Source: a bacterium (lineage in GTDB: Bacteria > Verrucomicrobiota > Kiritimatiellia > CAIKKV01 > CAITUY01). Taken from it: a stretch of DNA of 37,716 bases. Below the pieces are notes generated by a model. It was not told the origin of the DNA. It did not search any database and saw only the letters and a list, made by a program, of their open reading frames with translations. Made by a program: the position numbers and the translations under genes. The stretch covers positions 1 to 37,716 of the forward strand of contig JBAWZF010000026.1 in the NCBI GenBank assembly GCA_037143175.1, in the 5' to 3' direction. Each line of letters begins with the position of its first letter. The stretch's first letter is position 1. Positions 9,158-33,852 of the stretch are shown here, piece after piece.

Positions 9158-11083
9158 ATGAAAATTGAACATCAATGCATGGGGGATCTTGCGAAACGGG
9201 GGCTCCTGTTTCTGATCGGCGCGCTCGCCCTGGGCCCGGCCTTCACCGCCCAGGCGGCTCCGGAGGTGTTCGACGATTTCGAAGGATACGGCTCCGGGAT
9301 GACGTTCACCTCCCCCACGAACGGGTGGCAGGCGTCCGGGACCGCCGCCTATGTGACCAACAGCGGCGGCTATGTGACCAACAGCGTGACGCCTTCAAAT
9401 AGCGTGTTCCTGGGGTTGGCCGTCGCCCTGACGAATTCCCTGCCCACCCCTGCCGTGAATCGAGTCTGGACGGATATGCGGATCAGACCGGTGGCCGGGG
9501 AGGAGCCGCCCAATGCCCCGACCGGAACCGCCAGTTTCGTCTGCTATTTCAACGCCAACGGGTACCCGGTCCTGGCCACGAATGGCGTGTGGTTCGCCTG
9601 CACGAACGATATCTGGGGCAATGGCCTTCTTCCGGCGACCAATGGCTATGTGCGGATTTCCCTTTTCCAAGACTACAGCGCCTCGAACCAGGTGGTGTTC
9701 CTCGATGACCGGCTGATTCTCCAGGATGCGCGCTTCTCGGGTACGGCGGGCAGTTATCATCAACTCGGCTTCCAGAATTCCGACAGCAATAGTTGGCTGG
9801 ATAATGTGTGGATCCGGACCAATGCGGGGCCGCAAAGCCTGACCAACGATATCAATCTCGATGGCCTGGCCGATGCCGCCGAGGTGGTCGTCTATGGTCG
9901 CGCCGCCCGGAAGCTGTATGTCTTTGCGGGGACGACGAACCTTGTGCCGGTATTCACCACGATCACCAATGCCATCGCCGCCTGGCGGCCCCGGGATGTC
10001 ATCCATGTCATTGCCGGTAATTACGCGGGCGAGAGTGTCGTGGTGGCGGCCAATCCATCCAATATCGTGTTTGAAGGCGATGCCTTTACGGTCGCCAGCC
10101 TGACGGTGGCCTCGAACGCTTCGGCCTCATTTGCCCAGTCCGTGACCTGCGCGGGGGCGCTGACGGTCAGCGGCCAGGTGGCGATGGCGGTGTCGGCTTG
10201 CCTGACCTCCGGTTCCGCGAGGGTGGACGGAACGGTGGCCATGGCGTCGAACTCAACCTTCTATGTAGGCGCGGCCGGCCTGGATGTGGGGGCCGGGGGA
10301 ATCCTCCGTTTCGCCACCAATTCACAACTCGTGGTGAATTCGGCGGGGGTGAACATGACGGGCGCGTTCACGATCTCCAGTACCTGGAAAACCGCGGCCA
10401 GTCTGCCGCTGGCCTTTGCGGACGATTTCAACCTCTACGCCGTCGGCACGGTGGTGACCAACCTCAACTTCCGCGGGTGGTACGCCGATGCCCCCTCGGT
10501 TCTTGTTACGAACCAAGGCATAGGGAACAGCCCGGCGGTTGTGATCCCGGGCGGGAGCACGTTGACCAACAGCATCAGCGCCACAGGGCTCGCAAGAGTC
10601 TGGTCCGATTTCTACCTCAAGCCCCTTTGGGGCCTCGAGCCGCCGAATGCGCCTACAAATACCGCGAGCTTTGCCGCCTACGTCAACAGCGACGGTTTTC
10701 TGGTGGTTGCCGTTAAAGGCGGGTGGACCGTTTGTTCCAATACGGTGGATGGTCGCAGCCTGCAATTGGACAGCAATACGTTCAACCGGATCACGATATG
10801 CCAGGACTTGAGTACGGGACTTTTCTCCCTGTTTGTGCAAAGCAACCTGATGGCCATGGCTTTGAGCGCGCCGACGAACACCGGCGGGTATCATTTGCTG
10901 GGGGTAAAAAACGCGAATAGCGCCGACCAGAATACGTTTGTCGACAACGTGCTGATTACGACCCTGTTGCCTGGCGGGCTCACGAATGACCTGAATAACG
11001 ACGGAATTGCTGACGGGTACGAGGTGAATGCCTATAACTGGTTGGACGTGCTGTCGAGGGGGACGGTATTCAAGATACGGTGA
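9158..11083 (+). CDS. Large secreted repeat protein with Ca-binding loops
   Basis: A 641-aa exported protein; the start is ATG 9158 or ATG 9179. The signal peptide core is LLFLIGALALGPAFTAQA, ending near residue 34. Two similar beta-sandwich-like modules (about 38-230 and 425-620) each start DDF, contain a W(T/S)D(M/F)-x-(I/L)(R/K)P strand followed by EPPNAPT, and end in a loop of the D-x-N-x-D-G type: DINLDGLADAAE and DLNNDGIADGYE, likely calcium sites. Between them (about 245-420) a Val/Ala/Ser-rich stretch begins YVFAGTTNLVP and looks like a right-handed beta helix. The C-terminus LSRGTVFKIR resembles that of the upstream neighbour, 12 bp away. Probably a surface or extracellular polysaccharide-interacting protein; no catalytic motif recognised. 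Confidence 0.65.
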   Translation: MKIEHQCMGDLAKRGLLFLIGALALGPAFTAQAAPEVFDDFEGYGSGMTFTSPTNGWQASGTAAYVTNSGGYVTNSVTPSNSVFLGLAVALTNSLPTPAVNRVWTDMRIRPVAGEEPPNAPTGTASFVCYFNANGYPVLATNGVWFACTNDIWGNGLLPATNGYVRISLFQDYSASNQVVFLDDRLILQDARFSGTAGSYHQLGFQNSDSNSWLDNVWIRTNAGPQSLTNDINLDGLADAAEVVVYGRAARKLYVFAGTTNLVPVFTTITNAIAAWRPRDVIHVIAGNYAGESVVVAANPSNIVFEGDAFTVASLTVASNASASFAQSVTCAGALTVSGQVAMAVSACLTSGSARVDGTVAMASNSTFYVGAAGLDVGAGGILRFATNSQLVVNSAGVNMTGAFTISSTWKTAASLPLAFADDFNLYAVGTVVTNLNFRGWYADAPSVLVTNQGIGNSPAVVIPGGSTLTNSISATGLARVWSDFYLKPLWGLEPPNAPTNTASFAAYVNSDGFLVVAVKGGWTVCSNTVDGRSLQLDSNTFNRITICQDLSTGLFSLFVQSNLMAMALSAPTNTGGYHLLGVKNANSADQNTFVDNVLITTLLPGGLTNDLNNDGIADGYEVNAYNWLDVLSRGTVFKIR

Positions 11084-15180: not shown

Positions 15181-15390
15181 CGGATTATCTCACCGTACGA
15201 CATTCAACTCAACCGCGAAGCCTTCTATCACTCGGTCTTTTTTGCCGCTCTCCAGGCGGCAGGCGGAGAAATCATCGCCGCATTGCACTCCGACAACCTA
15301 CTTCGCCAAGGCTACGAAGGTCAGGAGGGCCGCGCAGACGCCGTGATCAAGACCCCAAAAACCATCTAAGACATTGAGTGCCATTTGTCG
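15181..15390 (+). pseudogene. PD-(D/E)xK nuclease C-terminal fragment (DUF1703-like)
   Basis: Directly after the kinase stop and in the same frame, about 60 codons read SPYDIQLNREAFYHSVFF, then a GRADAVIKTPKTI segment. These match the C-terminal PD-(D/E)xK domain that follows AAA-ATPase domains in DUF1703-type proteins, where the continuation is normally I-Y-x-x-E-F-K. Here the tyrosine codon is TAA (15367-15369), and DIE follows beyond it. The start, the whole ATPase part and the C-terminal end are missing. It marks the edge of the accessory island and implies past recombination at the operon boundary. Confidence 0.6.
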
Positions 15391-15436
15391 CCAGCTCCCA
15401 TCATCCCGCTTGAACTATTGGCTTCAATTTAGCACC

Positions 15437-18400
15437 ATGCCCACCATGGACATCATTTCGGGAATAAGGGATAATCATAAACGAGGCAAGGTAGGCGATT
15501 TTCTGCGAGAGAAGATCCAGTCCGGGTCAAAATTATCCTTCGTTTCAGCCTATTTCACGATTTACGCCTACGACATGATGCGCTCGCAATTGGAAGCGTC
15601 CGATTCACTGCGGTTCCTGTTCGGTGAACCCCGATTTGTCCGTAATATCGATCCCGACAAAACCGACAAAAAGGCGTTCGATATCGAGGATTCCAAACTT
15701 CAGTTGCAGAAACGGCTGGAACAACGGCGGGTGGCCAAGGACTGTGCCGACTGGATCCGGCGCAAGGTGAATATCCGGTCGGTCCGCTATCCCGGCTTCC
15801 TTCACGGCAAGATGTACCACATGGATAACCATGGTGTGCAGGAGGCGCTACTCGGTAGTTCCAATTTCACGGTCAGTGGCCTGGGGATCGGCAAAGGCGA
15901 GCGCAATAATATCGAGTTGAATCTTGAGGTAAACGATAACCGCGATCGGCGCGACTTGCTCACCTGGTTCGACGAAATCTGGAATGACGAAGCGGTCGTC
16001 GAAGATGTTAAAGCTGAGGTTTTAAGTTACCTTGATCAGCTTTACGCTAATCACTCACCGGAATTCATCTATTTCAAGACGCTTTTCCACCTTTTTGAGG
16101 ATTACCTCAAAGAGGCGGATAAAGGCGGTCTGTTGGATGAGAAAACCGGCTTTTTTGAAACCGATGTGTGGGACATGCTCTATGACTTCCAGAAGGATGG
16201 GGTCAAGGGGGCGATCAATAAAATTATCAAGCATAACGGCTGCATTATTGCCGACAGTGTCGGTCTCGGAAAAACCTTTGAAGCGCTTGCGGTGATCAAA
16301 TATTTTGAATTACTCAATAGCCGGGTTCTCGTGCTCTGTCCCAAGAAGCTGGAGGATAACTGGAATGTCTATCGCGACAATGACCGCCGTAATCCTTTGC
16401 TGAAAGACCGGTTCGCCTACACGGTGATGGCGCATACCGACTTGGGTCTGGCTAAGTTCGATACCCTTAACTGGGGTAATTACGACCTGGTTGTGATTGA
16501 TGAGTCGCATAATTTCAGGAATAACACACGGGGCGCGGTGCAGGACGACGGAACAAAGAAAACAACCCGGTATGAATTCCTGATGGAGCAGATCCTGCGA
16601 AAGGGAATCAAGACCAAGGTGCTATTGCTTTCAGCCACCCCTGTAAACAACAACCTGAAGGATTTGCGCAATCAGTTTTTGTTGATCACACAGGATCAGG
16701 ATACCGCTTTTGTAGAAACACTGAGCATTGGCAGTATCGGCCAGGTTATGCGGAATGCGCAGACCAACTTCACCAACTGGGCCGATACGAAGAAGAATCC
16801 CGGTCGCAAGGTGGCCCGGCTTCTTGAAGTCCTGGACTCCTCGTTTTTCAAGCTTCTGGATGAATTGACCATCGCTCGCTCACGCAAACATATCGTTAGT
16901 TATTACGGAACTAAAGAAATGGGCGAATTTCCCGAGCGACTCAAACCACTCGCCCGGTCGACCGTCATCGATATCAAGGGGTATTTTCCGACTTATGACG
17001 AGTTGGACGAGGCGATATCCGGTTACAAGTTATCTATTTTCAACCCTTCGGCCTACCTCCTTGAGAGTCATCTGAGTAGGTATATGAAGGAGGGCGAACT
17101 CGCCCTTTTTAATGATCAGAAAAAACGTGAGTTCAATCTGATCGGGATGATGCAGGTCAACTACCTGAAGCGGCTTGAGAGTTCAGTCCACAGCTTCGAG
17201 ATATCGATCGATAACACGATCCAGAAGATCAAGACATTGCTTGGCAAGATCGATCATTTTGAGACCAATCTCGAAGAATACACCCAGCCCGATCTGCTTG
17301 ACCAGCAAGAGGACGAGGAAGCCGCGGAACTCCTTGAGAAGTTAACGGTCGGAAAAAAATTGGAATTCAAGCTTGAGCACCTGAAACGAGAGGAATGGAA
17401 GGCGGATCTAAAGCGGGATCTTGCGCAGTTGATCACCATCCATGAGAAGGCGGCGGCGATTACACCCGAGCGCGATGCCAAGTTCCAGGAGTTGAAAACC
17501 TTGATTGCGGCAAAGGTGCGCAGCCCGATCAATGATGCCAATCGAAAGGTGCTTGTGTTTACCGCGTTTTCCGACACCGCCAGTTATCTGTATGAACATC
17601 TGGAAAGTTGGGTGCGGAATGAGCTCGGATTACAGATTGCGCTGGTCTCCGGGTCGGGTGACAATAAAACCACTTTTAAGCTGGCGGGCTTCCAGCATCA
17701 GACCGACTTCATTTCCATCCTCACCAATTTCTCGCCACGCTCCAAGCATCGCGAAAAAATGCCTAACATGCCGCAGGCGGGTGAAATTGATATCCTGATT
17801 GCCACGGACTGCATTTCGGAAGGACAGAACCTGCAGGACTGTGACTATCTGATCAACTACGACATTCACTGGAATCCAGTGCGCATTATTCAGCGCTTTG
17901 GGCGTATTGATCGTCTCGGCAGCACGAACAAGCGGATTCAGCTTGTCAATTTCTGGCCGACCGATGATTTGAACAAATACATTAACCTCAAGGACCGGGT
18001 GGAAGCCCGCATGGCGCTAGTGGATATCGCCGCCACTGGTGCCGATGATTTGCTCAATCCGGATCAGATCAAAGATCTCGTGACAGAAGAGTTGACCTAC
18101 CGTGAGAAACAGCTTCTTCGTCTTAGAGATGAGGTCATTGATCTGGAAGAAATGGACGACAATGTTTCGCTCAGCGAATTTACGCTGGATGATTTCCGTA
18201 TTGAGCTGATGAACTTTTTGGAAGCCAACCGTCAGGCTTTGCGTGATGCGCCATTGGGACTGTATGGATTGGTGCCGACTTTGGATAAAACCAAAGATGC
18301 CGGGCTGTTTGACAAGAACTGGCATGAGATTGTTAAGCCGGGTGTGATTTTCTGTTTACGACATAAAAACCCGCCGCAGGAGAAAACCTCATCCAATGTC

Positions 18401-18748
18401 AACCCGCTGGGTGGCTATTATCTGCTCTATATTCGTGATGACGGAACCGTCCGGTTCACCTTCACCCATGCCAAGAACACCCTGACCCTTTTTCAGAAGC
18501 TCTGTGCCAGTAAAACCGAACCCTATCAGCAACTTTGCGACCTCTTTGACAAAGAAACCGTCCACGGTCAGGATATGGCAAAATATGACGATTTGTTGGG
18601 TAAGTCCGTCAAAAGCATTGCCGGAACATTTAAAAAGCGCCTTGCTGTCGGATTGACCGCTGGGCGAGATTTTGTAATCCCGGATCAAAATGAGCAGGCT
18701 AAAGATGACACGGATTTTGAACTCATAACCTGGTTGGTGATTAAATAA
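15437..18748 (+). CDS. PLD-nuclease/SNF2-type helicase, defence-associated
   Basis: A 1103-aa two-part protein. Residues 1-210 form a phospholipase-D-like nuclease domain with half of an HKD site: HGKMYHMD (His123, Lys125) then LLGSSNFT. Residues about 240-900 form an SF2 helicase of SNF2/HepA type, with Walker A DSVGLGKTF (near 275), DESH (from Asp355), LSATPVNN (near 397) and the motif VI QRFGRIDRLG (from 819). A C-terminal region of about 200 residues has no motif I recognise. The start is ATG 15437 or ATG 15446; the frame is open to a TTG at 15374, which looks non-coding. No clear ribosome binding site is seen. Such helicases accompany Eco57I-type methyltransferases in restriction-like systems; one lies 2.1 kb downstream. 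Probable motor and nuclease of the locus. Confidence 0.85.
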   Translation: MPTMDIISGIRDNHKRGKVGDFLREKIQSGSKLSFVSAYFTIYAYDMMRSQLEASDSLRFLFGEPRFVRNIDPDKTDKKAFDIEDSKLQLQKRLEQRRVAKDCADWIRRKVNIRSVRYPGFLHGKMYHMDNHGVQEALLGSSNFTVSGLGIGKGERNNIELNLEVNDNRDRRDLLTWFDEIWNDEAVVEDVKAEVLSYLDQLYANHSPEFIYFKTLFHLFEDYLKEADKGGLLDEKTGFFETDVWDMLYDFQKDGVKGAINKIIKHNGCIIADSVGLGKTFEALAVIKYFELLNSRVLVLCPKKLEDNWNVYRDNDRRNPLLKDRFAYTVMAHTDLGLAKFDTLNWGNYDLVVIDESHNFRNNTRGAVQDDGTKKTTRYEFLMEQILRKGIKTKVLLLSATPVNNNLKDLRNQFLLITQDQDTAFVETLSIGSIGQVMRNAQTNFTNWADTKKNPGRKVARLLEVLDSSFFKLLDELTIARSRKHIVSYYGTKEMGEFPERLKPLARSTVIDIKGYFPTYDELDEAISGYKLSIFNPSAYLLESHLSRYMKEGELALFNDQKKREFNLIGMMQVNYLKRLESSVHSFEISIDNTIQKIKTLLGKIDHFETNLEEYTQPDLLDQQEDEEAAELLEKLTVGKKLEFKLEHLKREEWKADLKRDLAQLITIHEKAAAITPERDAKFQELKTLIAAKVRSPINDANRKVLVFTAFSDTASYLYEHLESWVRNELGLQIALVSGSGDNKTTFKLAGFQHQTDFISILTNFSPRSKHREKMPNMPQAGEIDILIATDCISEGQNLQDCDYLINYDIHWNPVRIIQRFGRIDRLGSTNKRIQLVNFWPTDDLNKYINLKDRVEARMALVDIAATGADDLLNPDQIKDLVTEELTYREKQLLRLRDEVIDLEEMDDNVSLSEFTLDDFRIELMNFLEANRQALRDAPLGLYGLVPTLDKTKDAGLFDKNWHEIVKPGVIFCLRHKNPPQEKTSSNVNPLGGYYLLYIRDDGTVRFTFTHAKNTLTLFQKLCASKTEPYQQLCDLFDKETVHGQDMAKYDDLLGKSVKSIAGTFKKRLAVGLTAGRDFVIPDQNEQAKDDTDFELITWLVIK

Positions 18749-18772
18749 ATTATGAAGTATGAGTGATGAAGT

Positions 18773-19819
18773 ATGAAGACGCTTGAACAGATACGAGACC
18801 ATCGTCTGCAGATTCCCATGTCAGCTTCATGGTATTTGTCGGATATTGGTAAAGCCCAGGGGTTGCAGGAATTGTTTACTCGGCAATCGCCGCAGAAGTT
18901 GAAGGTGCTTAGGGAACATGCTGTTGCTCAAAGTGTGGTGTCCTCAAATCGGATAGAAGGGGTCACTATTGACGATTCACGGATTGGAACCGTTGTTTTT
19001 GGGCATCCTTCGCTACGGGATCGGGATGAGATTGAGGTGGCCGGTTATCGTGATGCCCTGAATCTTATCCATACGCAAGGCGCTGCACTTCCTGTCAACG
19101 AGGAGACCATTCTGAATCTTCACAAACTGAGTCGTGGAGAAAGTTGGGATGCAGGCCAGTATAAGGATAAGCCGGTAGACATCATTGAGAAATTCGCTGG
19201 TGGTGGGGAGCGAGTTCGGTTTCGAAGTGTGCTTCCAAAAGAGACTCCCGAGTTTACCTGCAAGCTGGTGACCCTGTGGCAGGATCAGAGCCGTGACCAT
19301 GACATCTCGCCCCTCATTGTCATGGCCGCCTTCAATCTGGATTTCCTCTGCATCCATCCGTTTCGCGATGGGAACGGGAGAGTGTCCCGGCTTCTATTGC
19401 TATTGACTGCCTACCATCTGGGGGTTGAGGTGGGGCGGTATGTCAGCCTTGAGCGGATTATTGAAGAGAATAAAGCACGGTATTACGAAACCCTTCAACT
19501 CAGTTCCAAAGGGTGGCATGAGGGAAAGCACGATCCCTGGCCCTATATTGGATACCTGTTGTACATCATCAAGAAGGCTTACGATGAGTTTGAGGAGCGG
19601 GCGGGCCAGATCGCTGCACCTCGTGGTGAAAAGAGTGAGATGGTGCTGAATTGGATCCGGGCTAGACAAGAGCCGTTTCGCTTGGTTGATGTTGAGTCGG
19701 CTTGTCCGGGGGTTGGAAGAGATTGGATTCGCACGCTTTTATTTGAACTCAAGAAAAAGGGGCGGCTTACGTGTTCTGGAAAGGGGCGTGCTGCCCGATG
19801 GAACTATGAAAAAGAATGA
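18773..19819 (+). CDS. Fic-domain AMP transferase, class II
   Basis: A 348-aa Fic/DOC-family protein that transfers AMP or a related group from a nucleotide to a target protein. The catalytic loop HPFRDGNGR (195-203) is complete. The N-terminal SSNRIEG (57-63) fits the inhibitory (S/T)xxxE(G/N) motif, with Glu62 the residue that blocks ATP, so the enzyme is self-restrained (class II). A C-terminal winged-helix-like tail (about 285-345) may bind DNA. The start is ATG 18773, 24 bp after the helicase stop; an 11-bp direct repeat ATGAAGTATGA spans the junction. Fic genes are frequent passengers within restriction loci. The target is unknown; regulation of the island is one option. Confidence 0.9.
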   Translation: MKTLEQIRDHRLQIPMSASWYLSDIGKAQGLQELFTRQSPQKLKVLREHAVAQSVVSSNRIEGVTIDDSRIGTVVFGHPSLRDRDEIEVAGYRDALNLIHTQGAALPVNEETILNLHKLSRGESWDAGQYKDKPVDIIEKFAGGGERVRFRSVLPKETPEFTCKLVTLWQDQSRDHDISPLIVMAAFNLDFLCIHPFRDGNGRVSRLLLLLTAYHLGVEVGRYVSLERIIEENKARYYETLQLSSKGWHEGKHDPWPYIGYLLYIIKKAYDEFEERAGQIAAPRGEKSEMVLNWIRARQEPFRLVDVESACPGVGRDWIRTLLFELKKKGRLTCSGKGRAARWNYEKE

Positions 19820-20175
19820 GTGTACTACACTCTATTGAGTGTATTATTGAGTGTATTGAGTGGTATGGCTTAAGTGAAATGTGTCAGAAAAGACGTAGTA
19901 CCCCTACGTAAGGGTATTCGTAGGGGTATTATCTTGTGCGGGTAATGGGTAATAGGTAGTGGTAATGGGTAATTTATTAGGTAAGGCCTTCAGATTTAGG
20001 CACTTACAAGGAAAGAGTGTAGTACACTTAAAAGAGTGTATTAAAGAGTGTACTGTGTCAGATTTGAGAAGAGGTATTACCCCAAATAAGGGTAATAATG
20101 AGGGTAATATCGTGATTCGAAATAGGTATTACCCAGTCAAGTGGGTAATGAAATAGGTAATTAATTAGGTAACGC
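19818..20175. repeat. Duplicated repeat-rich intergenic region
   Basis: This gap holds two diverged copies of one layout. Copy A (19818-19988) and copy B (20015-20175) each contain, in order: the palindrome GAGTGTA-N-TACACT (19818-19832; 20015-20028), two further GAGTGTA words, GTGTCAG (19881-19887; 20055-20061), a hairpin with a CCCC-containing arm, several GGGTAAT words and a final TTAGGTAA. Hairpins are TACCCCTACG with its complement (19899-19908/19919-19928), TATTACCC (20075-20082/20090-20097) and ATTACCCA (20128-20135/20142-20149). The region separates fic from the coupled regulator-methyltransferase pair, so it may be a multi-site operator, an attenuator or a small RNA source. No convincing gene is seen in it. 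Confidence 0.75.
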
Positions 20176-20179
20176 ATTG

Positions 20180-20869
20180 ATGACCGACCTCAAAACACTA
20201 CTTAAACAGGGCGAAGGCATAGCCGTTGAATTCAAGGTATGCCAGCGGGCACTCAGTCGGGACGTTTATAGTAAAAACCCGGTTATTGCCCATTTTTTCC
20301 AGCAGATCGGGCGGGCGGACGAACTGGGCTCCGGCACGCGCAAGTTAATGAAATACGGGAAACTCTTTGGCGGAAGTGATCCGGAACTGATTGAGGGAGA
20401 TGTTTTCCGGATTATCGTCAAATATCCTGATTTCGACGCCCCGCTGGCGGACCAGACTGTAGTCACCCCGCAAGTCACCCCGCAAGTCACCCCGCAAGTC
20501 AAAAATGATGATAAAGTACTGCATGATAACATCTTCCGTGAACTATCGAAGGAGTTTATGGCGTTAACCGGACAAGTCACCGGACAAGTCACCGGACAAG
20601 TCACCGCGCAAGTCGCCGCGCAAGTTGGTATGATACTCAATACGGTGGCACACGAATCAAATTCCCGGGAGACACTTCAAACAGCAACGGGCATGACAGA
20701 TCGTGAACACTTCCGGAAGGCGTATTTGGAACCTTTACTTTTGGTTGGCTGGATTGAGCGCACCATCCCCGACAAACCCACCAGCCGCCTCCAAAAATAC
20801 CGGCTGACCGCCAAAGGCAAAGCTCTGTTGAAATTCACAACGAAATCACAGGATAAAAAATTATTATGA
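20180..20869 (+). CDS. Internally deleted AlbA/RecG-like regulator with VTPQ repeats
   Basis: A 229-aa protein that reads as the two ends of a normally 450-500-aa Schlafen/AlbA_2-type ATP-binding protein. Residues 1-30 (LLKQGEGIAVEFKV, then RALSRDVY) are the AlbA_2 start. Residue 31 jumps directly to the far C-terminal part (KNPVIAHFF, IGRADELGSGTRKLM). About 300 residues with the nucleic-acid and ATPase-like core are gone, yet the frame is kept. The tail holds the tandem repeats (VTPQ)3 and (VTGQ)n, then a winged-helix-like end. The start is ATG 20180 after AGGTAA. Its stop overlaps the methyltransferase start as ATGA, so it is still translated as a leader. It could be a remnant kept for coupling, or a functional mini-regulator. 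Confidence 0.65.
   Translation: MTDLKTLLKQGEGIAVEFKVCQRALSRDVYSKNPVIAHFFQQIGRADELGSGTRKLMKYGKLFGGSDPELIEGDVFRIIVKYPDFDAPLADQTVVTPQVTPQVTPQVKNDDKVLHDNIFRELSKEFMALTGQVTGQVTGQVTAQVAAQVGMILNTVAHESNSRETLQTATGMTDREHFRKAYLEPLLLVGWIERTIPDKPTSRLQKYRLTAKGKALLKFTTKSQDKKLL
20462..20500 (+). repeat. 12-bp coding tandem repeat (VTPQ)
   Basis: Three near-perfect copies of GTCACCCCGCAA plus a partial fourth encode Val-Thr-Pro-Gln repeats inside the deleted regulator. The lengths can vary by slippage without shifting the frame. Confidence 0.9.
20567..20626 (+). repeat. 12-bp coding tandem repeat (VTGQ/VTAQ)
   Basis: Five units beginning ACCGGACAAGTC and drifting to ACCGCGCAAGTC and GCCGCGCAAGTT encode a second repeat array in the same protein. 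It is related to the array at 20462-20500 by the shared CAAGTC core. Confidence 0.88.
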
Positions 20870-23800
20870 CCAACCTTCGCCAACAATTATCCGGTGCACT
20901 CGCGGCTTTTGCCAAACAATCTGTAGTTGAAGCCGCAACCGCGTTATTTAAGACCCTTGGTTATCATAGCGAAAAAAGGATGGAGTTTTCCGGTCTGCAG
21001 GATTTTCTTGGCGAGATAGACCATGTCGGGAAATATACCAAACTCTTTCCGGATGCGCGCACGTCGGCAGGGCGTGCACCTGTTATGCTGCTACAGTTGA
21101 CCAGCGAGGAAATTGCTTCAGGCTCGGGTGGTCAACTCCTGTTAGTATCGGATAAAAAAGCAGATTTGCGTCTATTCGAGTCTTATCTTTTTCTAGCCAT
21201 TAGTCTGCCTGACCGAGCCTACACACGTGTCGAACTAGCTGACCGCGCTCGTGTCCTGAATGGCCTTTTTCGGCAGCCTGTTCTTATCCTGTTCCGTTAT
21301 TCTGACCTCATTTCCATGGCCATTACCTATCGCCGTGCCCACAAACGCGATCAGTCCCGAGATGTTTTGGATCGTAAGGTGACTCTCATCAAGGATATCA
21401 GTTGCACCCGGCCACATCGCGCGCATCTGGATATTCTCTTGGACTTCAGTCTGTCGAGTCTCTCTACCCCTCAGACGCCCATCAGCACCTTCGCTCAGTT
21501 AGATGACGCTTGGCGTAAGACCCTGAGTACTGAGGCCCTTAACCATCGCTTCTACAAAGAACTGGCTGCCTGGTATTACTGGGCCGTCAACACCATTCGC
21601 CTCCCCATTATCGCCGACTATCTGAAAGAGCGAAAAGATGCTCAGGATGAGAATATTAAACAGTTCACTATCCGACTGTTGTGTCGCACCATTTTTTGTT
21701 GGTTTCTGAAAGAACGAGGACTGATTGATCGACAACTGCTGGAAATTGCCGATGATGCCGGGCAGGATTTGATTCTTGTTCGTCAACCTTTAAAGGGCCA
21801 GAAATTCAGTGACGTCAGTAGTTATTACCGCGGCATTCTTCAGAACGTATTTTTTAACTGCCTCAATACCCCAATGGATCAACGCAGATTGGATGCTAGC
21901 CGCGCGGCCAATGACAAGACAGTTAAAGACCCTAAACTTAAAAAACTCTCATATCGCGGCAAACAACATTTGCCCGATGATTTTGATTACGATCTATTTG
22001 ATCGGATTCCCTACCTAAACGGGGGGCTATTCGATGTGCTGCCGGAAGACAATGCTTCCGACACTATTGATGACGATGTAATTCACGTACCTAATGACTT
22101 GTTCTACGCATCTGAACGGAAGTTCAAGCACGACAAGAAGATACTGGCAGTCAAGGGGCTCAATCGCATTCTTGATGGGTACAAGTTTACCATTGCCGAA
22201 AACACTCCGTTGGAAGAAGAAATTGCGCTGGATCCGGAACTCCTGGGTTTGGTTTTCGAGAATCTGCTGGCCGAAGTGGATACCAGCGATGAAGGCGCGG
22301 CAACCTCTGCCCGTAAGGCATCAGGTTCTTACTATACCCCCCGCCGTGTCATTGACTATATGGTTAATGAGGCACTGCGCCTCCACTTGGAAAATTACAT
22401 TCGAGCCCGTGCCGCTTCGCCGGAGGAGTGCCAGGCCTTGCAGAGTCTCCTCTATCATGACTCCTTTGATTCCAGCCAGAAGCGGTTAGCAGGGTGGATA
22501 GTTGAAGCATTTGATGAAATTCGTATCCTTGACCCTGCTTGCGGATCCGGTGCTTTTCCCATGGGTGCATTACATCGTATGGTCGCCCTCCTGCAACGTG
22601 TGGATCCACAGAATCGCCGCTGGTTACATCGACAAGTGAGTCACATTCCTGACCGCCATCTGCGTGAGACCGCCGAGAAGGAACTGGCCCGACATGCCGA
22701 TGACTATTCCCGCAAGCTAGGGTTGATAAAGAACGCGGTCTATGGTGTGGATATCCAGCCGCTAGCGGTGCTGATTACGAAACTGCGTTTTTTTATTTCA
22801 CTGCTGGTGGATCAAAATATCAACCTGGATAATCCCAAAGGCAATTATGGCCTCACTCCGCTTCCCAATCTGGAAACGAAGGTTCTCTGTGCCAACACGC
22901 TGCGCGAGGTGCAGGTTTCTCTATTTGAACGTGAAGCTATCCGGAAATATCAGTCGGCGCGTGACGAGTATTACCAGCCTGAGACGCAAACTACCCGACG
23001 TGAGGAATTGGCTGATGAAATCGCCGCCGCCTTGAGTGAATTACTGCCGGGATTCTCTAGGGAAGTGACGGGACACGAATATAAGGATAAACGAACTCAG
23101 GATCTCCGCAATCGCGAACTACTTAAGGAATGGTTCCGTCACTCGACTCTGCCTGCACCTTTTTTCAACTTTGCCGTCTTTTTCCCTGAAATCTGTGCCG
23201 ATGCCCCGGGCGCTACGGTTGGTGGTGAAATGCCCCTTGTCAACGATGCCCAAAAACAGCAGGAACTGGTTGTGCCGGGGCGGAAGACCCCCGCCAGCCC
23301 TCGATCTGGCTTCGATATTGTCATTGGAAATCCGCCCTATGGCGGCGACAAAATACCTGATGAGGTCAAGGAGGCATTACATCTGGGCTCCAAGGATCCC
23401 TACGGGGCCTTTATCGCCCGGTTTATGGGTGACGGAAAACAGTCCACGCCCCTGCGTATTGGCGGTGTGCTGAGTTACATCGTGTCCGATACCTTTATGA
23501 CCATCAAGACCCATCGGTCTTTGCGGGAACAGTTAATGGGGTCGCGCATTCACAAGATGATTCGGGTCCACCCGGATACCTTCTCGGCCACGGTCAACAC
23601 CGCCATCATATTGCTTCAAAGAGGTGGCGGGCCGGGAACGACTGCGCCAACGGAAGCAGAATTGACCGAGGCATGGGCCAAAGGGCCATGGTGTCAGATG
23701 GTTGACCTCACCCAAGTCAGTATCAGCGAGCAACATGACCGGTTCTTGAACCTGCTTTTTGAGACTGCAGGCTCCGAGCGCCGACGGGATGTGTCCACAG

Positions 23801-25698
23801 AATCTTGCGCAGTCTATCACTATCCTCAGACGCTGATCGCGAGAAACACGAATTTGCCATTTTTTGTTGCATCGCCAAAATTATTCGAACTAATGAATGA
23901 TACAACAGCTCCCGTGCGCCATGTAAAGCTTGGAGAGGTTGATACTCCGGTCCGCAGTCTTGTATTTAATGGGAGAACCGTACGCCTTGTAAGACTTGGC
24001 GATATTGCGGATGTAAAGCAAGGGTTGGCTACCGGAGACAATGACTCCTATCTCTTTCAGAGCCCTGAGGCCAGAGGCAGTTATAGGTCGATTGACCAAT
24101 ATAAACAGTTCTTGTTAACCGATGCGGATTTGGAACATATCCGATCCGATTCCGACTTGCGTCATGAAGTGAGTCAAAAGGGCATTTCGAAAGAAAACAA
24201 GAGCTCACGTCGGTATTTTGAAGGGCGCTATATTGTTCCATTTGACAAAGGTGGAGAATCAGATGCTGGAGAGGGGTGGACGCCTAATTACTGGGTTCCG
24301 ACTGACTACTTTATTGACTGGAGTGAATTCGCAATTGATAGAATGCGGACACTCACAATAGGTGTTCGTGATGATAACAAGCGTAATGAGCTATGTGCTG
24401 TTATCAGGAATGCCGATGCATATTTCGCGAAGGGTATCACTTACTCGCCAACCGGTATTTATTCGCCAAGTTTTCGACGAAGTTGTTGCGCAATTTTTGG
24501 GAATAAAGGATCTACGATAATCCCTCTATCCACAGATTTAGATACTTCGGCTCTCTTGGGTGTATTGGCCTCAAAAGCGTTTAAGTATTTCCTGAAACCA
24601 TACCGTGCACACACGGTTGAGTCTCCTGAGCAGGGTTTAGTGGATACGCAAATCCCTTTCCCGATCGTGGATGTTCGTGCCCTGGTAGCGAAGGTGATTG
24701 CAAAGCAACGAGCAGATCCGCGGTACGACTATGCGCCTGAAGAACAGTTAGAGATTGATCGGTTGGTTTATGATGCATACGGATTAACTCAAGCTGACAT
24801 TGCTGAGGTCGAAACGTGGTTTGTTCGCCGTTATTCGAGGTTAGCGACCGCCCAGCGTCGAAATTTGCGGGCAGCTGGTAAGGTGCCATACTTTGACCGA
24901 TGGTGTGTGTATTGCGATGAGACTGGCCATTTGGCCTACGATCATGCTCCGGACATGATTCTGGGCGCGTTGCTGGTGCCTCGTGATCGTGTCCGTCCGC
25001 TGACGGTGGCATTGCGTGAGCGTCTTGCTGAGCTTGGCTGGCCCGCTAAGCGGGAGCTCAAGTGGACCAAGGTGTCGCCTGCTGGCCTTAGGTTTTACGA
25101 GGTGGCTTTGGATTTCTTTCTAAACGAACCCGATTTACGGTTCCGAGCGCTCATTTCGCCAAAGCATCCGCCACCGCCAAAATTGCCCGCACCGCCATCT
25201 GGCGCCGCAGATCCCGAATCTGCTGATTGGGAGAAGTACAACAAGGTTTTAGAAGACTCTGCGCCAGCTGTTGTGGACTATATGCAGCGGCACGAAGCCT
25301 GGTACTACGACCGTTATTTCGATCTTTTACGCGAAACACTCATTCCACCAGCAAGACATGCTATTTTTGTGGATGTGAAGGACACGCGCGGTGGAACCAG
25401 GATCAGGGAACTTGAGAACCGGCTGGCCGATGCACATTACGATTGGACGCGCAGTGGAATTGTCGAAGGCGTGTCGCAAATTGCCAGTCACGATGTTCTG
25501 CTTGATCAACTGGTGGATATTCTGCTTGGTTGCGTGGCGTGGATACACAGCCATCCCCAGCGTAATGTCGGGCACCAACCCAGCCCTGCCAAGGCGGCGC
25601 TGGCCTCAAAAGTGAAGGCGATTCTGGATAAAGCGGATACGACTCTAGTGCCGAAAATCGTTGTGGAACGTTCGTTGGAAAGGAATCCAGTGATATGA
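20866..25698 (+). CDS. Eco57I-type adenine methyltransferase fused to a DUF3800-like domain
   Basis: A 1610-aa protein. Residues 1-480 are the N-terminal region seen in type IIG/Eco57I-like enzymes (RVLNGLFRQPVLILFRYSD near 125). The N6-adenine methyltransferase core has motif I ILDPACGSGAF (SAM binding, Asp556) and motif IV NPPYGG (Asn822). A TaqI-C-like target-recognition domain covers about 1030-1290 (GDIADVKQGLATGDND; FAKGITYSPTGIYSP). From about 1338 a second domain starts FDRWCVYCDETGHLAYD and ends SQIASHDVLLDQLVDILLGCVAW. This is the RNase-H-like DUF3800 pattern with its acidic residues. DUF3800 is normally a separate protein; this fusion is unusual. No PD-(D/E)xK site is evident, so cutting may come from DUF3800 or the PLD-helicase. 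Starts by ATGA overlap with the regulator; ends by ATGA overlap with the next gene. Confidence 0.85.
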   Translation: MTNLRQQLSGALAAFAKQSVVEAATALFKTLGYHSEKRMEFSGLQDFLGEIDHVGKYTKLFPDARTSAGRAPVMLLQLTSEEIASGSGGQLLLVSDKKADLRLFESYLFLAISLPDRAYTRVELADRARVLNGLFRQPVLILFRYSDLISMAITYRRAHKRDQSRDVLDRKVTLIKDISCTRPHRAHLDILLDFSLSSLSTPQTPISTFAQLDDAWRKTLSTEALNHRFYKELAAWYYWAVNTIRLPIIADYLKERKDAQDENIKQFTIRLLCRTIFCWFLKERGLIDRQLLEIADDAGQDLILVRQPLKGQKFSDVSSYYRGILQNVFFNCLNTPMDQRRLDASRAANDKTVKDPKLKKLSYRGKQHLPDDFDYDLFDRIPYLNGGLFDVLPEDNASDTIDDDVIHVPNDLFYASERKFKHDKKILAVKGLNRILDGYKFTIAENTPLEEEIALDPELLGLVFENLLAEVDTSDEGAATSARKASGSYYTPRRVIDYMVNEALRLHLENYIRARAASPEECQALQSLLYHDSFDSSQKRLAGWIVEAFDEIRILDPACGSGAFPMGALHRMVALLQRVDPQNRRWLHRQVSHIPDRHLRETAEKELARHADDYSRKLGLIKNAVYGVDIQPLAVLITKLRFFISLLVDQNINLDNPKGNYGLTPLPNLETKVLCANTLREVQVSLFEREAIRKYQSARDEYYQPETQTTRREELADEIAAALSELLPGFSREVTGHEYKDKRTQDLRNRELLKEWFRHSTLPAPFFNFAVFFPEICADAPGATVGGEMPLVNDAQKQQELVVPGRKTPASPRSGFDIVIGNPPYGGDKIPDEVKEALHLGSKDPYGAFIARFMGDGKQSTPLRIGGVLSYIVSDTFMTIKTHRSLREQLMGSRIHKMIRVHPDTFSATVNTAIILLQRGGGPGTTAPTEAELTEAWAKGPWCQMVDLTQVSISEQHDRFLNLLFETAGSERRRDVSTESCAVYHYPQTLIARNTNLPFFVASPKLFELMNDTTAPVRHVKLGEVDTPVRSLVFNGRTVRLVRLGDIADVKQGLATGDNDSYLFQSPEARGSYRSIDQYKQFLLTDADLEHIRSDSDLRHEVSQKGISKENKSSRRYFEGRYIVPFDKGGESDAGEGWTPNYWVPTDYFIDWSEFAIDRMRTLTIGVRDDNKRNELCAVIRNADAYFAKGITYSPTGIYSPSFRRSCCAIFGNKGSTIIPLSTDLDTSALLGVLASKAFKYFLKPYRAHTVESPEQGLVDTQIPFPIVDVRALVAKVIAKQRADPRYDYAPEEQLEIDRLVYDAYGLTQADIAEVETWFVRRYSRLATAQRRNLRAAGKVPYFDRWCVYCDETGHLAYDHAPDMILGALLVPRDRVRPLTVALRERLAELGWPAKRELKWTKVSPAGLRFYEVALDFFLNEPDLRFRALISPKHPPPPKLPAPPSGAADPESADWEKYNKVLEDSAPAVVDYMQRHEAWYYDRYFDLLRETLIPPARHAIFVDVKDTRGGTRIRELENRLADAHYDWTRSGIVEGVSQIASHDVLLDQLVDILLGCVAWIHSHPQRNVGHQPSPAKAALASKVKAILDKADTTLVPKIVVERSLERNPVI

Positions 25699-26195
25699 GC
25701 GGTAACTTGGTTTTTCCGCCGATTCTTCCGGATAATGGTGGTGTCCCAATTGTCGAACCCCAGTCGTTGACGAGATACCAGACTGATTTCCCCGCTGGTG
25801 GTACGCTGCCATCCGTGAGAGGCAAACCGGTTATGGTTCGTCGTGAACCCCACCCTGCGAATCCGGCTCGTGAATACACCTATTGGCATATGGTGACGGA
25901 GGGGGAGGATGAGGACGAACAAAAGCGTACTCCTGACTTGACCAGAATGATAAGGATGCCTTGGGCGAAACCGCTACTGATCAATCATGCCCACACCGCC
26001 GTCAAACGCTGGTGGAATGTGCGTTATGGAATGCGCCACTACTGTATTTGGCATTCGCCAGTAAATTATTTGGTGGTCATAAAAGAACGTTACGAGGGGC
26101 TGTTTCTCGTCACAACTTACTGTCCGATCCCGAAGCGAGCCTTAGGGTTTCACAAGGAATGGGCGATAGCAAAAAAAGCAGGCCGCACCTTTTGA
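25695..26195 (+). CDS. Small protein, possible BECR-fold nuclease
   Basis: A 166-aa protein whose ATG lies in the stop of the methyltransferase gene (ATGA). The core reads RTPDLTRMIRMPWAKPLL, then a histidine-rich turn (INHAHTAVKRWW), then YLVVIKERYEG and FLVTTYCPI. The order basic-PW helix, His turn, paired strands with LVV and a TxYC end resembles phage-type barnase/EndoU/ColicinE5/RelE (BECR) nucleases as I remember them, but I cannot confirm it. If right it would be an RNA- or DNA-cutting effector. Otherwise it is a protein of unknown function co-translated with the methyltransferase. The gene is real: overlap with its neighbour and even amino acid composition support it. Confidence 0.5.
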   Translation: MSGNLVFPPILPDNGGVPIVEPQSLTRYQTDFPAGGTLPSVRGKPVMVRREPHPANPAREYTYWHMVTEGEDEDEQKRTPDLTRMIRMPWAKPLLINHAHTAVKRWWNVRYGMRHYCIWHSPVNYLVVIKERYEGLFLVTTYCPIPKRALGFHKEWAIAKKAGRTF

Positions 26196-26268
26196 CGGGT
26201 ACGGCCCTTGTGCACTGTTCCACGCTTGGTGGCTGTGTCTGGCAATATTGAACGAAATCCGACGGACG

Positions 26269-26700
26269 ATGTCAATACCCGAAGAGAAAAGATTCTGGCT
26301 GATCAAGTTTGCACCCTTTCGTACCGCTTGGGCCGAAATCGTAAAGAGGGGACATTTCACCCTGAGAGGTGTTCGTAGTCCTGCGGCCAGAAACAATCTC
26401 TCGAAAATGCGATTGGGTGATAAGGTACTCTACTACCACAGCCAGGAAGAGTTGGTAGTGGTCGGCGTTATGGAAGTCGCTCGTGAGGCTTACCCTGATC
26501 CTACCTGTACCGATTCACAATGGTTGACTTGTGATTTTGTGCCAATGAAAACGCTGGAACATCCTGTTCCCCTTAGGGCAATCAAGGCAGATCAACGATT
26601 GCAGACACTAGCCGTGGTCCGTCAGCCCCGACTTTCAGTAATGCCTGTAACAGAAGAGCAATTTCAAATTATAGCTGGTGGGATTAAGGGGGGAATCTGA
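26269..26700 (+). CDS. EVE-domain protein (modified-base reader)
   Basis: A 143-aa PUA-like EVE-domain protein. RFWLIKFAPFRTAWAEIVKRG, split by a short charged loop, then VRSPAARNNLSKMRLGDKVLYYHS and VVGVMEVAREAYPDPT are the usual EVE strands and loops; the aromatic pocket for a flipped modified base comes from this region. EVE domains bind modified bases such as 5-hydroxymethylcytosine in DNA or modified RNA bases, and are often paired with nucleases in type IV-like restriction. I place the start at ATG 26269 rather than the TTG at 26248. The stop and the next ATG share one base (TGATG), so it is co-translated with a GIY-YIG nuclease. That points to a two-subunit modification-dependent nuclease. 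Confidence 0.85.
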   Translation: MSIPEEKRFWLIKFAPFRTAWAEIVKRGHFTLRGVRSPAARNNLSKMRLGDKVLYYHSQEELVVVGVMEVAREAYPDPTCTDSQWLTCDFVPMKTLEHPVPLRAIKADQRLQTLAVVRQPRLSVMPVTEEQFQIIAGGIKGGI

Positions 26701-27002
26701 TGAAACGACGCACGCAGTTAGTTTGTCAGCATTTGGAGAACATCTCCAGGCAGGCATTAGAACGGCATCAGGATATTATCGGGCAGTATGCGCGGGGGCG
26801 GCAGGGGATCTATGCGTTATATCGCCGCGGGAAACTCTATTATATCGGTTTGGCGACTAACCTGCGGACTCGCCTGAAACAGCATCTCAAGGATCGGCAT
26901 GGCGGGTCATGGGATCAATTCTCGGTCTACCTGACGGTCGGCGACAATCACCTGCGAAAACTTGAAGCCTTGATGTTACGGACTGTCAAGCCATCCCTGT
27001 AA
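26700..27002 (+). CDS. GIY-YIG nuclease, short form
   Basis: A 100-aa GIY-YIG endonuclease. GIYALYRRGKLYYIGLATNL gives both the GIY and YIG motifs and the expected start of the basic helix; RTRLKQHLKDRHGGSWDQFSVY supplies the arginine and histidine, and KLEALMLRTVKP the metal-binding glutamate. Members I remember with this N-terminus (KRRTQLVCQHLENISR) continue for some 40 residues beyond the glutamate, so this one may be cut short at its C-terminus, but the catalytic residues are all present. It overlaps the EVE gene by one base. Likely the cutting subunit of an EVE/GIY-YIG pair. Confidence 0.85.
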   Translation: MKRRTQLVCQHLENISRQALERHQDIIGQYARGRQGIYALYRRGKLYYIGLATNLRTRLKQHLKDRHGGSWDQFSVYLTVGDNHLRKLEALMLRTVKPSL

Positions 27003-27044: not shown

Positions 27045-27090
27045 CCCATGCACGAATTTCGAACTCACCTAAATATCAAGGAGCATGATG

Positions 27091-31820: not shown

Positions 31821-33752
31821 TTATTTCGTGAACTCTTTCCGGATGGAACTTTCCAGGTTGGCGGGCTTAGTGTGGTTCAGTCTGTCCAAAACACGCTCCC
31901 ACCGATACGCAAAACTTCCTCGCTCATCGCGTGGGCGATGTTTAAAGAGCATGTCGAAAGCCCGCTTTCGCAAGCGATAGTCCTGCTGGATATGCAGCAC
32001 CCGCTCGACAAAAGAGGCGAGATAGGCATCTATCACGGCTTGGGGCGATGGAAAGAATGGAATCCGCCGGAGAATGGGAGCGGCATAGGAGCTGGCAAAA
32101 GTGTCCAGAGGTGAGAAATAGTCGGTAAAGGTACCGGTGTGATCCGAGACAATGAGTTCGGTGGGGAAGCCAGAACTATTTTCAAGAATGACTTCATCGC
32201 CATCATCGAAAAGCACCGAGTTCTGTAGGTTCATGCGCCCGACAATCAGGCTGGATGCCGCCGCTTTTCCAAGTAACTCGGCAAATTTGATGCAATAGGC
32301 GGGATTCAAAAATCGAGATCGTGGAATTTTGTCGCTTGCCAGCCCGGGGAGATAGTCGCGCTCGAAATAGGTAGACCAGATGAGTTGTCCATCATACCGG
32401 GTACCCCGGTAATGTTCGCTGATTTTACGGGTGGTCATGCGGGGCGGTAGATTCATGCCAAGCTGGCGGCAGCCCAGCCGCCGGTCAAGGATGTACTCGG
32501 TATACTCCTCCGCTTCCATGATCGAGGGGAGCAGGTCTTTTCCTTCATTAAGATGTTCCCGGATTCCCCACTTTTGCATGCGGCTGATGCGGACAACAGG
32601 GCGGTCAATATTTGCCTGTTTAACTTCCGAGACGTAGACATCCCGACGTCCCGCGCTTGTTGGGCGTCGGGAAAGGGAGCCTATGACCCGGCCGATGTTG
32701 ACGTATTCGATATCGCCAAATTCCCTGACGAAATTAAAAATAAACCCCCGTGCTTTTTCGTCACACAACATTTGTAAGTCAGGCGATTCCGGATGGCGGT
32801 CGAGTTCGTCAAAAATGGAGTCGAATATAAGTTCGCCTTCTTCAATTTTGCCGCCAGGCAGCCATTCGATTTGCATGAAGAATTCAGGACTCAACCCCAG
32901 TAACACTTCTTCGGGAATCGTTTTGTCGTGTTGGCCGAGAAGTGCAGAAAACATCATGTTCCGCCATTGCACATCCTCGATATTATCCTCGCGTAATTCC
33001 GAGGGAACGGCCTCGCGAAAGGCATCTTTAAGGGTTTCGTAGCAGGTGCGGATGGGGCCCTCAAGCGCATGGGAAAAACGGGTGTGGGTAAAGGTTTTGT
33101 CGGCAGCAAAGAACGCGACCTCTGGATGAGCCATACGGTTGTATTTGCCGGAATAGTCACGGATCTCAATGAGATGGCTTTTTAACTCGGCGTCTGGAAG
33201 GTTGCCGAGGTTGCAAAACTGTTGAAAGCTGATGAAGCGTGTTCCCGTGTCGCGGCTGTAGTAATAGATGGCTTTACCCCCGATCGGGGTAATAGAGGCA
33301 TGAATCATCCGCTTCATTTCATCAGGCGTTTGGGGCAGTGAGGCAATTCGCCAATTCTCGCCACGACTCTTAATGCCTGAGCGGACTTTCTCATTCATGA
33401 GGTTCAGGAACTTGATTTTTTGTTTGGACACCAATTCCTGCAACAGCTCATCAGCTTCGAAGGCGAGGGCCATATTTTCGGGATCGGGCCGGATCAGGAT
33501 GCCGCTGGAATCCATGATCAAGTCGACCGAATTCTGCCACTCGCGCATTTCGTCTTCTTCATCCAATTTGGGTTGGCCTGATGCGAGTCGTGTCGCATTA
33601 ATGTCGGCAATGTAGGCTATACTTTGAGTGGCATGGATGCCGGGCAGGGTCACCAGAGTTCGGCTTCGTGGAAAAAGAGTCCCAGTTCTGGATAGCAAAC
33701 GTCCTTCGCGATCAACAGCCAGAGGATGTGCGCCTAAAATTCGTATAGTCAT
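31821..33752 (-). CDS. Large protein of unknown function, possibly kinase-like
   Basis: A 643-aa soluble protein, with ATG 33752 preferred to TTG 33764. I do not recognise the family. A central stretch has HARFSHALEGP-like acidic/aromatic patches (TFTHTRFSHALEGPIRTC). The C-terminal half reads LIVGRMNLQNSVLFDDGDEVI, which faintly recalls the catalytic-loop and DFG region of aminoglycoside-kinase-like folds (GR-x-N-x-x-N then an acidic strand), but the expected HxD is absent. There is no signal peptide or membrane span. The gene is divergent from the ATP-grasp/Mur-ligase pair, 100 bp away, and is followed by a lytic transglycosylase, so a cell-envelope or peptide-ligation role is possible. Confidence 0.7.
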   Translation of the reverse strand: MTIRILGAHPLAVDREGRLLSRTGTLFPRSRTLVTLPGIHATQSIAYIADINATRLASGQPKLDEEDEMREWQNSVDLIMDSSGILIRPDPENMALAFEADELLQELVSKQKIKFLNLMNEKVRSGIKSRGENWRIASLPQTPDEMKRMIHASITPIGGKAIYYYSRDTGTRFISFQQFCNLGNLPDAELKSHLIEIRDYSGKYNRMAHPEVAFFAADKTFTHTRFSHALEGPIRTCYETLKDAFREAVPSELREDNIEDVQWRNMMFSALLGQHDKTIPEEVLLGLSPEFFMQIEWLPGGKIEEGELIFDSIFDELDRHPESPDLQMLCDEKARGFIFNFVREFGDIEYVNIGRVIGSLSRRPTSAGRRDVYVSEVKQANIDRPVVRISRMQKWGIREHLNEGKDLLPSIMEAEEYTEYILDRRLGCRQLGMNLPPRMTTRKISEHYRGTRYDGQLIWSTYFERDYLPGLASDKIPRSRFLNPAYCIKFAELLGKAAASSLIVGRMNLQNSVLFDDGDEVILENSSGFPTELIVSDHTGTFTDYFSPLDTFASSYAAPILRRIPFFPSPQAVIDAYLASFVERVLHIQQDYRLRKRAFDMLFKHRPRDERGSFAYRWERVLDRLNHTKPANLESSIRKEFTK

Positions 33753-33852
33753 TACTTTTAACAATACTAACGTTTACTGGGGTTAAACAACAGTTCTTTA
33801 TAAGAATTTCTTTTCTTTATCCATCCCGTCCGATTCCCTAACATGGCTGCTT

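Follow-up and report, generated by a model that had tools for sequence, protein, structure and literature searches.

We analysed a putative defence locus at positions 15437-27002 of a 37,716-nucleotide bacterial contig (GenBank JBAWZF010000026.1, assembly GCA_037143175.1), hereafter the window. The locus is a run of seven open reading frames (ORFs), all on the + strand, between a pfkB kinase gene and an aldo/keto reductase gene. Seven co-directional ORFs were predicted here by an earlier sequence-only reading, which is borne out: Pfam scores exceed the cut-offs for the PLD and SNF2/Helicase_C, Fic, Eco57I methylase, DUF3800, EVE and GIY-YIG domains. What that reading missed is that the DUF3800 domain and the small ORF after it constitute the RlfAB module of phage P1 (PDC-M04 in PADLOC), with an RNase H-like predicted fold.

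Gene content of the locus

The first gene (15437-18748) encodes an intact HKD/PLD-nuclease-SNF2 helicase of 1103 amino acids (Pfam PLDc_2, SNF2-rel_dom and Helicase_C). Its HKD (HGKMYHMD), Walker A (GLGKT), DESH and motif VI (QRFGRIDR) motifs are intact, and relatives with 50-77% identity share its start at ATG 15437. The nuclease fragment once suspected at the start of the locus did not materialise, as positions 15181-15436, ahead of the helicase, hold no recognisable gene fragment and the PLD domain is part of the intact helicase. The best PADLOC match of the protein is "C3a139, HKD+Snf2", a name for which a literature search gave no papers. A second HKD-SNF2 helicase branch, at about 42% identity, has a recurrent neighbour set of its own (L086-L100). 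We rejected the assignment of these more distant PLD-helicases to DUF499 systems: their representative L097 has type III Mod and Res together with DUF4391, and in this one member examined the helicase-nuclease looks like an add-on to type III restriction-modification (RM). The second gene of the window's locus (18773-19819) encodes a Fic protein recognised by Pfam, with an HPFRDGNGR motif and, upstream of it, an SxxxEG inhibitory-helix motif (SNRIEG). Fic occupies the same place between helicase and methyltransferase in three other loci (L036, L039 and L042), from relatives in the same phylum.

The largest gene (20866-25698) encodes a methyltransferase-DUF3800 fusion of 1610 amino acids. Residues 1-1335 (20866-24870) form an Eco57I-type, type IIG-like N6-adenine methyltransferase with a C-terminal target-recognition region; its DPACGSG and NPPY motifs are intact, and its closest solved structures, 7lni and 7qw5, are site-specific adenine enzymes. 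The remainder (24871-25698) is the DUF3800 domain, a homologue of RlfA and PDC-M04A with an RNase HII-like predicted fold. A 166-residue protein homologous to phage P1 RlfB and PDC-M04B follows (25695-26195), its ORF overlapping the DUF3800 stop codon, and next comes a stand-alone EVE protein of the modified-base reader family (26248-26700; Pfam E 9.7e-35).

Two of the seven genes are remnants, so the earlier description of all as intact or near-intact holds for the helicase, methyltransferase and Fic motifs but fails for these two. The ORF at 20177-20869 is what is left of an AlbA/HATPase/Fic-like_C transcriptional regulator, with its C-terminal winged helix kept. Its residues 5-31 align to residues 12-38, and its residues 31-81 to residues 342-392, of an intact AlbA-type regulator (L153). 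The two alignments abut in the window and lie about 300 residues apart in L153, so that the window's copy lacks about 300 residues, lost in frame. Intact AlbA-type regulators stand just before the methyltransferase in three loci (L046, L113 and L153). The linker of the remnant (20461-20625) contains two 12-base-pair in-frame tandem repeats (TPQV and TGQV), and further 12-base-pair repeats occur in the gap at 19820-20176.

At the other end, the ORF at 26700-27002 is a C-terminally truncated GIY-YIG-RAMA protein, retaining 100 of about 230 amino acids. At 80% identity it matches only the N-terminal ~100 residues of an intact 230-residue GIY-YIG-RAMA protein, in which the missing half is the RAMA reader domain, and is probably a non-functional edge fragment. 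Among 289 genomes from the phylum, four have relatives of this protein, counting the window's own genome, and in two of them it is full length. The proposal that EVE comes with its own GIY-YIG nuclease is not supported, and a conserved EVE-GIY-YIG pair was rejected: no other locus has a GIY-YIG ORF next to EVE, the two do not travel together, and the intact GIY-YIG relative carries its own RAMA domain.

Recurrence of the operon and exchange of its recognition region

One genome per species was scanned with a 12-row methyltransferase alignment and the best 80 matches, from many phyla, were kept; many of these loci are metagenome-assembled, and the counts describe this family rather than population frequencies. 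Of the 59 methyltransferase loci whose sequence reaches 5 kb or more upstream, 48 have the helicase. Helicase, methyltransferase-DUF3800, small ORF and EVE occur as a unit in five loci (L102, L103, L108, L110 and L118) from Verrucomicrobiota, Nitrospirota and Lentisphaerota. One further locus (L031) has the helicase, methyltransferase, small ORF and EVE with DUF3800 as a separate gene, and five from Bacteroidota and Cyanobacteriota (L107, L109, L114, L116 and L119) combine helicase, methyltransferase and EVE without DUF3800.

The phylogeny of the methyltransferase follows this gene content. In a 103-row tree, the window pairs with L106 (Shimodaira-Hasegawa-like approximate likelihood ratio test, SH-aLRT, 97) inside a 13-row DUF3800 clade (97), which is nested within a 22-row EVE-linked clade (99). 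In the 22-row clade, 19 rows can be read past the methyltransferase and 18 of these have EVE, while the other large clade, of 79 rows, has no EVE at all; DUF3800 was present in 12 of the 13 subclade rows, and DUF3800 with the small ORF marks a subclade within the EVE-linked methyltransferases. None of 500 label shuffles matched this clustering of EVE and DUF3800. Across 63 loci, the identity matrices of helicase and methyltransferase were correlated (r = 0.45, uncorrected for host kinship), with none of 1000 permutations as high. We conclude that the helicase, the methyltransferase with or without DUF3800, the small ORF and EVE form a recurrent operon, more than chance would give. A lack of co-occurrence in other genomes, the outcome that would have refuted the sequence-only reading, is therefore not what is seen for these components, which recur together in several phyla; GIY-YIG does not recur with them.

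The target-recognition region of the methyltransferase has also been exchanged. L106 is the window's closest relative over methyltransferase residues 561-1050 (61-81% identity) and in DUF3800 (66-77%), yet over residues 1051-1330, where L122 or its kin are closest, its identity falls to 32-59%. The opposite holds for L122, which is 63-80% identical to the window over residues 1051-1330, against 43-52% over core residues 491-770 and 30-42% in DUF3800. Several members of the clade roughly match L122 in closeness to the window over residues 1051-1190, and over residues 1191-1260 L122 alone is close (80%). By these comparisons, the target-recognition region (approximately residues 1051-1330) is swapped relative to both flanks. 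The specificity domains of RM systems exchange single segments in such a manner, and exchange between relatives points to ordinary sequence-specific RM. L129 and L122 each have three methyltransferase matches in one locus, suggesting specificity arrays. Behind related methyltransferases, SMC-like ATPase, AlbA/HATPase and SIR2 proteins are encoded (L125:13684-17318 and L148:15652-17520), and it therefore seems that this family can exchange the genes in its accessory slot.

These two patterns bear on whether the locus is instead a type IV-like, modification-dependent system, in which EVE and the helicase would attack modified DNA and the methyltransferase would only protect. In its favour are the strong EVE linkage in the window's clade and an archaeal DUF499-containing operon of EVE, SNF2-nuclease and methyltransferase, for which restriction of modified DNA has been proposed (PMC7641849). 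However, most of the 79 sister-group rows, all lacking EVE, retain helicase and methyltransferase, and the recognition-region exchange argues for sequence-specific RM; we regard a type IV-like system as unlikely. The clean tie of EVE to one helicase-methyltransferase branch throughout a clade makes the idea that both unmodified and modified phage DNA are caught directly testable.

The RlfAB module and a proposed mechanism

In PADLOC, the window's DUF3800 domain matches PDC-M04A (2e-39) and its small ORF matches PDC-M04B (2.3e-27); a literature search for PDC-M04 gave no papers. The small ORF also matches RlfB of phage P1, where the preceding gene, rlfA, encodes a DUF3800 protein. P1 RlfA and RlfB themselves match PDC-M04A and PDC-M04B at 1e-95 and 1e-51, in the same order as in the window, and the closest named relative of the RNase-H-like fusion partner is P1 rlfA. 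In the viral contigs that extend past DUF3800, the small ORF follows directly in 37 of 37. The small ORF is thus an obligate partner of DUF3800, in fixed order and with overlapping or abutting ORFs. DUF3800 was seen in 40 viral contigs (L197-L236), and one contig filed as viral (L206) contains the entire methyltransferase-DUF3800 fusion. Searching viral contigs by pattern, with a small-ORF alignment of two rows, gave no matches. In L190 the pair has a type IIG/ISP enzyme as its neighbour, and other neighbours were also found.

The DUF3800 domain was modelled with AlphaFold2 at a mean predicted local distance difference test score (pLDDT) of 88.5. Foldseek matched the model to RNase HII (1eke) with E 2.8e-5 and probability 1.00, although the global superposition was loose, and residues D22-E23, D174 and D222 of the modelled fragment were invariant in 40 sequences. 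The model therefore has an RNase HII-like fold with the DE...D...D residues intact, making DUF3800 a candidate nuclease. This agrees with previous descriptions of RlfA as having an RNase H fold, listed next to toxin families (PMC3710099), and of DUF3800 as a nuclease with an RNase H fold that lies next to certain CRISPR loci (PMC12669027). The small ORF had been called a small nuclease, an assignment that we could not uphold: against Pfam it matches no nuclease, toxin or antitoxin family, and its model (pLDDT 95.8) has no significant match in the PDB. The RNases HigB1 and colicin D are among its top PDB matches, all non-significant (E ~1, TM-score at most 0.41), so that the fold offers just these BECR-type matches and one viral relative. 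Its near-invariant residues are H65, R84, R87, W90 and T140. An RNase reading of the small ORF is only a lead.

That lead belongs to an alternative account of RlfAB as a toxin-antitoxin-like or abortive-infection module, in which one protein would be an RNase and the other its control, and the methyltransferase recognition domain would detect foreign DNA or lost methylation and free the toxin, which would kill or arrest the cell. The obligate pairing with its fixed order and overlapping or abutting ORFs suits such a module, as do the RelE/colicin D-type RNases among the top-ranked matches of RlfB, its near-invariant residues and the listing of RlfA beside toxin families (PMC3710099). Yet those structural matches are non-significant, RlfB belongs to no Pfam toxin or antitoxin family, and a two-subunit nuclease accounts equally well for the pairing. 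We hold a toxin module to be possible but not probable.

In the window and 10 relatives (11 loci), the DUF3800 domain is the C-terminus of the methyltransferase, a fusion that joins the RlfA-like nuclease fold and the recognition domain in one chain. We favour, with moderate confidence, the reading of the locus as an ATP-dependent RM-like defence operon onto which an RlfAB module has been grafted, because of its domains and motifs, the site-specific adenine enzymes closest to its methyltransferase, its recurrence, the covariation of helicase and methyltransferase, the clade-bound EVE, the recognition exchange and the DUF3800 fold. In this operon the Eco57I-type methyltransferase would mark self DNA with N6-methyladenine (m6A) at sites picked by its exchangeable recognition domain, and the HKD-SNF2 protein would track along unmarked incoming DNA and cut it. 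The RlfA-like DUF3800 domain, tethered to the methyltransferase, could make up, with its RlfB-like partner, a further nuclease effector that this recognition domain also guides. EVE, as a protein of its own, would read modified bases, so that the system might also detect phage DNA escaping by base modification. Fic may serve as an accessory AMPylating or regulatory enzyme, and the regulator and GIY-YIG genes would be broken remnants. We infer the biochemical activities, the cutting, the EVE ligand and the protection against phage from family knowledge and genome linkage. Self-marking by the methyltransferase and attack on unmarked DNA by the helicase, as the sequence-only reading put it, are consistent with the domains, covariation and recognition exchange, and the part given to EVE as a modified-base reader follows from its family membership.

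Several observations weigh against this reading. The helicase is absent from 11 of the 59 loci with sufficient upstream sequence, mostly in Poribacteria. Most of the wider family lacks EVE and DUF3800, so the core pair does not require either. The DUF3800-RlfB pair is also found by itself and in phages; in one of these, P1, plating does not depend on either gene (PMC10695390). The pair is therefore not necessarily an effector of the methyltransferase. With its regulator and GIY-YIG genes broken, the island is decaying, and this copy could be inactive. Some of the same facts, namely that two of seven genes are broken, that EVE and DUF3800 are missing from many relatives and that SIR2, AlbA and SMC-like accessory genes appear in the wider family, would also suit an orphan or epigenetic methyltransferase whose defence-island neighbours hitch-hike passively with no joint mechanism. 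Clade-specific linkage across phyla, helicase-methyltransferase covariation and the protein fusion all argue against this, and we consider it unlikely.

Within the RM-like reading, a bolder version is tentative and rather doubtful: methyltransferase-DUF3800 and RlfB may be a new restriction-enzyme architecture, an RNase HII-fold nuclease that is aimed, along with its RlfB partner, by a type IIG-like recognition domain, with the same RlfAB pair, loose in phages such as P1, being a portable weapon against competing DNA. The operon provides a testable context for P1 rlfA/rlfB, as the same obligate pair lies in restriction-type operons, with the RlfA-like member joined to a predicted sequence-specific methyltransferase in 11 loci.

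Genomic setting and comparison with known systems

The pfkB gene to the left of the locus ends at 15180 and the aldo/keto reductase gene to the right starts at 27085. The island was correctly described as poorer in guanine and cytosine (GC) than the operon at 11.2-15.2 kb (0.50 versus 0.62), but flanks further out have 0.53-0.56, and for this reason the contrast stems mainly from the GC-rich left-hand operon, which is the outlier. A UvrD gene to the right of the island is kept across the genus, as is its tRNA-Tyr in two of the genus genomes checked, and the gene content left of UvrD varies among the genus genomes checked, which fits a variable island. Insertion targeted to tRNA-Tyr was rejected, since no tRNA repeat of at least 12 bases lies elsewhere in the window. 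No attachment repeat was found in the window, and no clean empty site was found: the nearest genome compared has pfkB and UvrD on separate contigs and lacks the aldo/keto reductase. Two large ORFs outside the locus, at 9158-11083 (641 amino acids) and 31821-33764 (647 amino acids), have no Pfam match; the nearest genus genome has a counterpart of the second at 85% identity. In three genus genomes (L239, L240 and L241) an in-frame TGA was reported for the UvrD homologue.

The layout had been judged unlike bacteriophage exclusion (BREX), defence island system associated with restriction-modification (DISARM) and classical type I systems, and this stands as far as tested. A search of defence-system profiles returned the PADLOC matches given above, with BREX and DISARM below membership. 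PglZ (PF08665), the DrmB/DUF1998-type (MZB) domain PF09369 and the DUF499 ATPase (PF04465) occur nowhere in the genome, which is 95% complete, on which grounds BREX, DISARM and DUF499 systems were each rejected. The methyltransferase is homologous to BREX_1_MTaseX, scoring 76 bits where the cut-off is 500; the DrmD model NF038317, with a cut-off of 610, gave 154.6 bits; and the locus has no DrmA-like gene beyond weak helicase cross-matches. Because these markers are absent and the DrmD and PglX scores fall far below cut-offs, the operon is not filed under any of the three.

Likenesses remain on several sides. With DISARM class 1 (DrmD with DrmMI/PglX-like) and ARMADA, the locus shares an SNF2 helicase and a PglX/Eco57I-like m6A methyltransferase, with weak matches to DrmD, DrmMI and PglX, whereas it lacks the DrmA/YprA helicase and DrmC, the genome has no MZB domain, and its nuclease is fused to the helicase N-terminus. 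DUF499-centred BREX-related (Hma) systems include a type 2 with an HKD-SNF2 helicase (PMC12839542), a feature that the window has (HmaA model, 80 bits), and an archaeal operon of EVE, SNF2-nuclease, COG1743 and DUF499 has been proposed to restrict modified DNA (PMC7641849). With these the locus has in common the N-terminal HKD on an SNF2 helicase, an m6A methyltransferase, a stand-alone EVE and a similar proposed logic; it differs in lacking DUF499 and in its Eco57I/type IIG-like methyltransferase, in place of the COG1743 of that archaeal operon. PDC-M04, the PADLOC candidate equivalent to P1 rlfA-rlfB, has both genes in the same order, while in the window and its 10 relatives M04A is the methyltransferase C-terminus. 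PDC-S14 shares the GIY-YIG catalytic half, and the window's copy has lost the RAMA half. Type IIG (Eco57I, MmeI) and type ISP enzymes, the closest PADLOC models for the methyltransferase, likewise join an m6A methyltransferase and a C-terminal recognition region on one chain, and the window's enzyme has both type IIG-like motifs and a recognition region exchanged between relatives. Unlike them, its sole recognised nuclease-like domain is C-terminal and RNase H-like, and the locus has a separate helicase-nuclease. Taken together, these comparisons suggest that the operon would work like DISARM and BREX-related RM systems without being filed as one.

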